Shown here: piece by piece, positions 20,501 to 64,000 of the stretch | Position numbering within the stretch: position 1 is the first letter of the stretch | How the letters are laid out: each line of letters opens with the position of its first letter | Assembly: GCA_025642075.2 (NCBI GenBank) | Contig: JAODUO010000479.1 | Location: 70,001-134,000 of the forward strand | Length of the DNA: 64,000 bases | Source of the DNA: Ridgeia piscesae | Lineage: Eukaryota; Annelida; Polychaeta; Sabellida; Siboglinidae | Direction: 5' to 3' | Program-made: the position numbers and the translations under genes | The notes under the pieces: model-generated | Database searches by the model: none | What the model was told of the DNA's origin: nothing | Seen by the model: only the letters and a program-made list of their open reading frames with translations

Positions 20501-23500
20501 ATATCAGTGTTGTGTTAAATGAAACATAACTTATCAAGAGACAGTCATTGTTTTCATGATATGTTGCATATTTGAGAAAGCCACTTTTGTTTAATCTTCC
20601 AAAGTCATGTATGCCATACTGTTTGCGTGTCTTCCTTGTAGGTCAGATGCCTGGCTGCCCAAGGGCATTGCTGGTTACCTGGCAAGTCTCTATCGCAAGA
20701 CGTCGTTTGGCAACAATGAGTACAGGTACTGGGTCTCAAAGGTGAGCACGTTTTCTAGTCACTATTTAACAGTATCGGTAGCATTTTATATGGTGTGAAT
20801 ACCATAACTTTGTGTGTATAATATGTCCCAAGTTATAATGTGTTACCTGACTTTTGTTAAGTCCTAATCAAATGTTTTTATTTATGGGAAGGACGACCGC
20901 AATTATAACTATAATTACAGTTATATTATAGATTAGTTTTTATTTTATCACGATTAAGGTTTATACACAGTTTTAATAATGAATTGATCTGTATTCTTTA
21001 TACTTTTTTACTCCTTTATTTTTTTGATGAAAGCTGCAAACGAATTTCCCTTCTGGCCCAAGTTCCGGGACAATAAAGTTTTATTGTATTGTATTTCTGT
21101 GTTACCATGTAAAATGCACATCTGAAATATGGCATCAATCCGGTATCAATTATTTCAGTAAAATTTGAATTCATCTCAGTATCATAGAGTCACTTAAATT
21201 GTAGTATTGCCACACATGATAGCATCAGTTCAAGAGTGATGTAAACATTAGTTACATAACTTGCATTTTAACATGATTATTATAAAGCCGATTAAATATG
21301 GTGGACACTGTTTAGCCACTTGGTGGGCACTGTCATGCCACCTGGTGGACACTTTCATGCCACATGGTGGACAATAAGGGTGGGACGAATCTGGAATTTC
21401 ATTCGAATCTAATATCGAATCGAATATCCTCAAAATTTCAAATACAAATCAAATATGAATATTCAGTGGCTTCAAATTCGATTGGAATACTGAACGATGT
21501 CGAGATGTCTTACCGGGATGCAGCGTCATCCCATGGGCAAGTCCATGCTGGAGTCATCGTGGCCATACGCATCGATCTTTTTGTTTACTTTCTGACGTAA
21601 CCATGAAAACAACTTCTTACAGCCACCAAACTTATCCCCGCATATCTTATGTGCATATACACATTAGGTTACAAAATAAAATAATTTACAGTCCTGTAAA
21701 GAATAAAAGTAAGAAAACAAACTCGCGCAAAAACCGACAATCTATGGTGGCTATGCGGAGCTTGGCATTCACTGTAACATTGGTAATTTATCGCAGGCGT
21801 CAATAAATAAATTAGCTTCACAAATTCCGGTTTCATGCTAACCGTAAAGTAACAATAACCCTAACTAAGCCTAAGCTAACTTCAATTAATCCTAAACTTG
21901 CCCGAAACCCTAACCTTAACAAGCTACGCATAGCCACCACTGATGGCGATGACAACACGATGCCGGCAAGTTTTATGTGAGTTTGTTTTGTGTGAGGAAC
22001 AGTTTGTCAGTAGTAGTCTCTTTCATAGTTAAGTCAGAAAGTAAAAGATTCCCTGGGACTGATTTTGCGGTGAGGATGTGTAGGAAAATATTAGAGCGAT
22101 ATTCATTTATATAGCTGAGAATTTACGAATATTGAATCAAGTAGCGGATAAACGTTTGAATATTCGAAATTTCGAATACGATTTGAATATTCATCCCATC
22201 CTTAGTGGACAATGGACATCTTATTTCTGATGCTCTATCACTGTGTATAATTTGTACAAACAGTTGCCATTTCATTAATGTTTTTAAAAAAAAATTGCAC
22301 TTTAAGATCAAGTTTGATCCTTAGCGGTGATCATGAATACCTGAAAACTGTCAACTCCCCATGCCAGCAGGACATTGTCACCGATATGTCATGGAAATTT
22401 TGAGAGAGAAAATTACTTAATTTAACAATGGATTTTGTCTTAGTGAAACGGTCCCCTGGAAACTCTGGCAGTCAATATCTATTTTTCTCTACCCCCAGGA
22501 CTTGACCGCCGTCCAGCGGTACGAGCAGGACGTGGGTGGTATAGTGCTTGACCCATCACATGCCAGGGAGAGTAGCATGTACTTCTCGACGAAATACCCC
22601 CACACGATGCTCCCGCGGTATGCGGACATGTACGACAAGAAGGCAGGGCTCATCATCCGCATGCTTGAGATCAGGGTCGGGCAGGAACTGCTGCTTCAGG
22701 TAACCACCAAGTAATGACAATATCAGGGCTCATCATCCGCATGCTTGAGATCAGGGTCGGGCAGGAACTGCTGCTTCAGGTAACCACCAACTAGTGCCAA
22801 TATCAGGGCTCGTCATCCGCATGCTTGAGATCAGGGTCGGGCAGGAACTGCTGCTTCAGGTAACCACCAAGTAGTGCCAATATCAGGGCTCATCATCCGC
22901 ATGCTTGAGATCAGGGTCGGGCAGGAACTGCTGCTTCAGGTAACCACCAACTAGTGCCAATATCAGGGCTCATCATTCGCATGCTTGAGATCAGGGTCGG
23001 GCAGGAACTGCTGCTTCAGGTAACCACCAAGTAGTGCCAATATCAGGGCTCATCATCCGCATGCTTGAGATCAGGGTCGGGCAGGAACTGCTGCTTCAGG
23101 TAACCACCAAGTAGTGCCAATATCAGGGCTCGTCATCCGCATGCTTGAGATCAGGGTCGGGCAGGAACTGCTGCTTCAGGTAACCACCAAGTAGTGCCAA
23201 TATCAGGGCTCTTCATCCGAATGCTTGAGATCAGGGTCGGGCAGGAACTGCTGCTTCAGGTAACCACCAAGTAGTGCCAATATCAGGGCTCATCATCCGC
23301 ATGCTTGAGATCAGGGTCGGGCAGGAACTGCTGCTTCAGGTAACCACCAAGTAGTGCCAATATCAGGGCTCATCATCCGCATGCTTGAGATCAGGGTCGG
23401 GCAGGAACTGCTGCTTCAGGTAACCACCAAGTAATGACAATATCAGGGCTCATCATCCGCATGCTTGAGATCAGGGTCGGGCAGGAACTGCTGCTTCAGG

Positions 23501-64000: not shown

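Follow-up and report, generated by a model that had tools for sequence, protein, structure and literature searches.

We suggest that the long tandem arrays carried by two adjoining genes of the tubeworm Ridgeia piscesae are probably "mirages", mostly neutral minisatellites that would persist at exon edges since they leave the original splice site in place beside an intact exon. Both donor and acceptor edges are marked by the repeats; in the edge-spanning arrays of TAF2, MED23 and the myosin genes, the copies are found on the intron's side of the edge, next to an intact exon. The window, that is, the whole 64,000-nucleotide stretch of DNA (C479:70001-134000), belongs to a genome of 628 Mb in 4875 contigs; positions past 64000 are given as window-extended, the window numbering being carried on along contig C479. 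Sequence was analysed up to window-extended 106000, by repeat finder alone past the start of MED23 (~86300), and arrays were called with Tandem Repeats Finder.

TAF2 and MED23 lie tail to tail, the former on the forward and the latter on the reverse strand. Our hand model of TAF2 matches human TAF2, and the protein is 93% identical to TAF2 of Lamellibrachia satsuma. Because of the human match, and because the joins in the L. satsuma protein fall where the first donors of arrays 1-3 would place them (including LTVTVS|CLRAIR and PPLQPTT|EESAKK), we take the TAF2 exon ends at these arrays to be real. The TAF2 features are as follows.

13911..45221, forward strand: TAF2 (TFIID subunit 2), 31 coding exons modelled by hand, the first exon lying outside the model
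22499..22699, forward strand: TAF2 exon 11, which seeds array 1 from its end
22644..24816, forward strand: array 1, 80-bp unit, 27.1 copies (Tandem Repeats Finder)
32550..32666, forward strand: TAF2 exon 22, which seeds array 2 from its end
32641..35110, forward strand: array 2, 51-bp unit, 49.5 copies (Tandem Repeats Finder)
32993..33109, forward strand: second, complete exon 22 lying within array 2
41470..41641, forward strand: TAF2 exon 30, which seeds array 3 from its end
41620..42910, forward strand: array 3, 29-bp unit, 44.1 copies (Tandem Repeats Finder)
42905..44033, forward strand: duplicate of the last TAF2 intron, last exon and 3' part, with mosaic identity to 44441-45590
44035..44444, forward strand: array 3b, 29-bp unit, 14.3 copies, within the second of the two segment copies

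Arrays 1-3 start within exons 11, 22 and 30 and extend from there into the intron. Their units join an exon end to a piece of intron, with 56 nt and 24 nt respectively in array 1, ~26 nt and 25 nt in array 2, where the intronic part includes CCTTTCTCCAG, and 22 nt and 7 nt in array 3. Sequence variants recur in blocks among the copies of array 1, and array 2 carries numerous small deletions. The extra copy of exon 22 within array 2 differs from the original exon at four positions, all of them synonymous, and its 38 amino acids are identical; so few and purely synonymous differences are what would be expected if the copy derived from another allele. Upstream of the copy stands the array's own CCTTTCTCCAG, an array-made acceptor whose pyrimidine run is better than that of the original. 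At the 3' end of the gene, the copies of a ~1.1-kb segment alternate between long near-identical stretches, some at 100%, and patches of poor identity, and the duplicate at 42905-44033 may be an assembly fault. The initial annotation had listed four separate arrays with units of 80, 51, 29 and 75 bp. Tandem Repeats Finder recovers all four. The array at 44035-44444 is not a separate seeding: it sits in the ~1.1-kb duplicated segment, and a reading of two independently seeded 29-bp arrays was therefore rejected.

MED23 continues to about window-extended 86307 (C479:156307), and 33 of its exons were modelled, some with edges accurate to ~10 bp only. The Ridgeia piscesae protein NP493_478g01045 shows 94% identity over 74% of this model; compared exon by exon, 13 of the 23 matches outside arrays are 97-100% identical, and several of those with lower identity visibly overrun an exon end. 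The Ridgeia MED23 protein model joins at the original exon edges. The MED23 features are the following.

46940..64000, reverse strand: 3' part of MED23 (Mediator subunit 23) in the window, assigned by PDB and protein searches
49347-49531: MED23 intronic array, in the interior of its intron
56763..58423, reverse strand: MED23 intron 21 minisatellite, non-spanning, ending ~53 bp before the exon 22 acceptor
63517..64000, reverse strand: in-window part of array 4, 75-bp unit, running on to window-extended 64828, 17.5 copies in total
window-extended 65659-66824 (L024:2159-3324): MED23 intron 14 array, 25-bp unit, ~46 copies, ending ~30 bp before the acceptor
window-extended 70353-74574: array 6, 39-bp unit, 109 copies, at the donor of the MED23 exon ...MVLGLYNK|
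window-extended 78741-84095: array 7, 47-bp unit, ~114 copies, at the MED23 exon 4 acceptor

The unit of array 4 joins ~62 nt from the end of a MED23 exon to 13 nt of intron. The seed exon of this array, ...TNQNQLHL(C), has its true end at window-extended 64767, 767 bp past the window, and the in-window part of the array holds copies only, without an exon end. Array 7 has the reverse layout: its end coincides with the acceptor cag|AATGATATG of exon 4, and its copies fill the preceding intron. Many units of the intron 14 array contain a donor-like GATG|GTAAG, away from the exon end. The earlier description, in which each real 5' splice site is followed by copies of itself, stands for arrays 1-3, where the TAF2 protein joins speak for it, and does not hold for array 4 within the window, its exon end being at 64767. 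The composition then given for the unit (exon end, donor and intron) is recovered at 56/24, ~26/25, 22/7 and ~62/13 nt, with the correction that as few as 7 nt of a unit are intronic where a minimum of 10 had been stated, and the repeated building on exon ends from units differing in length and sequence is confirmed for arrays 1-4 and 6.

The neighbourhood of the two genes contains other elements. An ORF at 6280-7430, in a neighbouring gene, encodes a Cys-rich repeat of 81 bp (27 aa) in 12.5 copies (array 6367-7382), its frame open over the length of the array; we take this ORF to be galaxin-like. Window positions 11700-12900 hold what are presumably remnants of a non-LTR retrotransposon reverse transcriptase. 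A gene on the strand opposite MED23 (L021:7400-9100), which we assume to be a myosin regulatory light chain, contains no array with a unit of at least 15 bp and at least 2.5 copies according to the repeat finder.

In TAF2 and MED23 together, six of nine independent minisatellite arrays span an exon edge, where randomly placed seeds would yield 0.78-0.81 (P = 1-2e-5, an optimistic value, since the window was chosen because of these arrays). Left out of the nine are 44035-44444 as a duplicate, the arrays at 46185 and 46814 as lying beyond both coding regions, the CAC repeat at 60952 and the array at 63014, which has 3.2 copies. Among the five TAF2/MED23 arrays outside the original finding, two span an edge, with 0.37 expected (P = 0.046).

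Independent genes were sampled through the myosins on other contigs. There were 75 matches to the myosin head domain, of which 55 stretches were taken in list order by protein match alone, with flanks per side of 450 bp (20 stretches), 400 bp (20) and 350 bp (15); the 20 matches outside the sample include two from a set of three equal matches, and some of the stretches overlap or share one gene. The positions of the edges were judged by eye on the basis of the protein match, and their number, ~110 (55 x 2), is approximate. Long open frames reported with some of the myosin matches resembled arrays; they disagreed with our own frames and were set aside. Edge-spanning arrays numbered none in the first 20 stretches, two clear and one borderline in the next 20, and one in the last 15. 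They are the following.

L058: 53-bp unit with 43 exonic nt, donor, clear case
L064: 20-bp unit, acceptor, clear case
L076: 20-bp unit with 15 exonic nt, donor, clear case
L062: array start practically at the donor, borderline case

Arrays of at least 4 copies, with a unit of at least 10 bp and a score of at least 100, numbered 13 in the myosin sample, after two simple short-unit repeats, in L033 and L072, had been removed manually; L072 also holds another piece of the L064 array, which lies under the score threshold. Counting L062, four of the 13 span an edge (0.76 expected, P = 0.005), and the strict count is three in ~110 edges (0.72 expected, P = 0.036). Six others come within 7-40 bp of an edge but do not span it, and the remaining three lie at 172-290 bp. 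Ten of the 13 thus span an edge or lie within 40 bp of one, against 2.0 expected, and none of 400,000 simulations reached ten, for a 40-bp limit that was chosen after inspection of the data. Edge-spanning structures are in this way found also on contigs C404, C103 and C285. On C285, the stretches L075 and L076 are neighbouring myosin exon matches with arrays apparently at both ends of one intron, one spanning the donor of the first exon and the other stopping 7 bp short of the second exon's acceptor. Elsewhere (G000:C1015:211404-211965), two neighbouring matches to one myosin head stretch are perhaps mutually exclusive exons.

The rates per edge are alike in the two sets, at 6/125 in TAF2 and MED23 and 4/~110 in the myosins (counting L062). 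Pooled, there are nine strict cases in ~235 edges, where 1.5 would be expected (P = 3e-5); the expectation comes from the sampled DNA, whose 152.5 readable kb hold 25 arrays (996 bp of unit). The sampled DNA consists of 20 stretches of 10 kb and is not strictly random, most being bases 20001-30000 of chosen contigs; two stretches come from the window's own contig, one of them with part of array 7, and one is all N. By kind, TAF2 and MED23 contribute five donors and one acceptor, and the myosins two clear donors, the borderline L062 and one acceptor. The proposal of the initial annotation that the phenomenon reaches beyond the window is to this extent upheld, by MED23 arrays 6 and 7 and by the myosin genes on other contigs, and edge-spanning arrays may be frequent in this genome.

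We envisage the following course of events. A short stretch across an exon edge was duplicated in tandem, as the sequence of the units shows, after which the array would lengthen into the intron through slippage and through unequal exchange, in part between alleles, with larger block duplications of the kind visible at exon 22 and array 3 probably contributing. Splicing would continue from the original site, where both predicted proteins join, and the remainder of the array would simply be intron. Three circumstances might account for the frequency of the arrays: the genome abounds in minisatellites, DNA of exons and of their edges is richer in GC than intron DNA, and an array started in an exon would survive only if it straddled the edge or kept the frame. 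The GC contents of exons (52.4%), arrays (46.6%), edges (45.8%) and introns (35.5%) are consistent with seeds in GC-rich DNA on the exon side and a later loss of those arrays that damage the protein, and the 81-bp array at 6367-7382, with its open frame, would represent the other kind that passes such a filter. Selection on the arrays themselves would be weak or absent, and their length is probably unstable. Three observations run counter to this neutral reading: the frame stays open for 367, 1322 and 126 nt in arrays 2, 3 and 6, so that inner donors may be used there; the six myosin arrays at 7-40 bp from an edge are not predicted by exonic seeds alone; and spanning arrays are more numerous at donors than at acceptors.

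It is conceivable, if unlikely in our judgement, that a duplication mechanism acting at exon-intron junctions (through R-loops, a conflict between replication and splicing-coupled processes, or a preference for splice-site DNA) makes the edges hotspots of minisatellite birth. The crowding of ten of the 13 myosin arrays at or near edges speaks for it, as does the balance of eight donors against two acceptors among the spanning arrays when L062 is counted, which at P = 0.11 leaves room for a junction-specific cause. Of the proposal in the initial annotation, the building of arrays on exon ends is upheld, and a preference for AG|GT donors as such receives no clear support: acceptors too are spanned (MED23 exon 4, L064) and edges of both kinds are abutted. 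Against such a mechanism, one of the 25 units of the sampled arrays contains a donor-like site scoring above 95% of the shuffled versions of that unit. Across the whole genome, three CAGGTRAGT at 20-50 bp spacing occur 3545 times against 2260 for the reversed motif (1.57), figures that count overlapping matches rather than arrays; in a 304-kb gene-rich sample, single words show ratios of 1.64 (CAGGTRA, 87 vs 53), 1.29 (MAGGTRAG, 36 vs 28) and 1.27 (CAGGT, 469 vs 368), the full 9-mer, at 6 vs 0, being too rare for use. Set against these gene-rich single-word counts, the triple-motif counts reveal no clear excess of donor-motif arrays, and the comparison is inconclusive. Motif matches L001-L003 were rejected as edge arrays, being two-copy repeats or lacking an array, as was the donor-like array in L013, which by eye has no recognisable preceding exon. 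GC-rich seeds combined with purifying selection would, moreover, yield part of the same pattern. That the whole is chance, a coincidence in a minisatellite-filled genome noticed because it was looked for, we consider very improbable: the array density is indeed very high and the first myosin batch gave 0/20, but six of nine genic arrays (P ~1e-5), the pooled excess at strict edges and the three cases in the independent genes all argue against it.

Selection might instead maintain the repeated donors, whether as decoys or for the alternative isoforms that they offer, and in support of this one can cite GT in every scored copy of arrays 1 (27/27), 3 (43/43), 3b (14/14) and 4 (17/17), together with an exon frame that stays open across the entire 1322 nt of array 3 and for the stretches already given in arrays 2 and 6. 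GT is, however, found in only 37 of the 47 scored copies of array 2, being lost in 10, and is lost in 11 of the 109 copies of array 6; arrays 1 and 4, when read through, run into an in-frame stop 12 nt and 1 nt past the exon end, and arrays that span acceptors exist. The copies thus give no consistent indication of upkeep, the initial annotation's suggestion of selected decoy donors is not borne out, and we give this explanation scant credence. Least credible of all is an assembly artefact of error-prone long reads, which could draw on the copy at 42905-44033, with its low-identity patches between 100% stretches, and on the many small deletions in array 2; against it, the units differ from array to array, variants are common to several copies, the flanking exons are intact and the same structure recurs on contigs C404, C103 and C285. 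An introner-like mobile element was likewise rejected, since the array units are of different lengths and look unlike in sequence. A search for a second copy of one TAF2 intron flank, the 671-bp flank of array 1, found none of full length: there were one full match and four short ones at 72-75% identity.

Beyond the mostly neutral mirages that we favour, a bolder possibility deserves mention, which we regard as doubtful although not far-fetched. Vestimentiferan exon edges could be genome-wide hotspots of minisatellite birth, affecting ~3-5% of edges (from the ~235 counted) through junction-linked duplication, and in a TAF2 array CCTTTCTCCAG could already be functioning as the 3' splice site of a duplicated exon with an unchanged peptide. 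If this were true, the birth of a new exon-intron unit would be observable in TAF2. Whatever the origin of the arrays, the tubeworm genome allows the rate of mirages, any donor bias and their effect on splicing to be counted, and gene predictors and short-read assemblers may misread exon ends of this kind.

The minisatellite at IFI6 described by Turri in 1995 reportedly contains several splice donors. In the portion of the human survey on which we draw, minisatellites at exon-intron boundaries have ~30-bp units in four copies on average, occur in recent human duplicates, and are reported to give novel introns and alternative transcripts (PMC2812944); what they share with our arrays is the link of exon-end minisatellites with additional splice sites or novel introns. 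In the Rogers model an intron is gained when an AG|GT is duplicated in tandem, and a case in potato RdRp belongs here (PMC4974935). Like that model, the tubeworm genes have tandem duplicates with AG|GT, and the exon 22 copy with its array-made acceptor has the layout that the model needs; unlike it, they offer no demonstrated new intron, and the L. satsuma protein runs across the corresponding joins with no additional exon. As regards annelids, the sections of the open-licence literature covered report intronic minisatellite arrays and contain no edge-spanning ones, and PMC8789280 mentions none of the four terms looked for (tandem repeat, satellite, intron, simple repeat).

The closest likeness is to amphioxus, and the amphioxus mirages were overlooked when the initial annotation stated that ordinary intronic microsatellites do not show this structure. 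As described in the excerpts available of two papers, mirages are minisatellite-like duplications of either exon boundary, with units of 10-160 bp, in Adh3 and the globins BflGb6 and BflGb9; they leave splicing regular by RT-PCR, differ in length between haplotypes, are somatically unstable at Adh3, and have been proposed as a model of intron gain (PMC3087553). TnC and, with imperfect mirages, PGBD5 are further cases (PMC3902484), and AG/GT signals are present in many but not all copies (PMC3087553; PMC3902484). Tubeworm units likewise span the exon-intron boundary, at 5' and at 3' boundaries, and many but not all of their copies keep GT (lost in 10/47 of array 2 and 11/109 of array 6); judged by the genome sequence, the tubeworm arrays fit the mirage definition by structure. 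Splicing and length variation are demonstrated for amphioxus in those excerpts, whereas the tubeworm arrays are known from the genome assembly. The tubeworm differs further in being an annelid, in carrying several arrays per gene, and in their size, with 17 to ~114 copies and up to 5.4 kb against the 6 and 3 copies given in the excerpts for BflGb6 haplotypes. Since the mirages found in print, as far as these excerpts go, are those of amphioxus alone, the longer and recurrent arrays of the annelid suggest an independent origin in a distant phylum.
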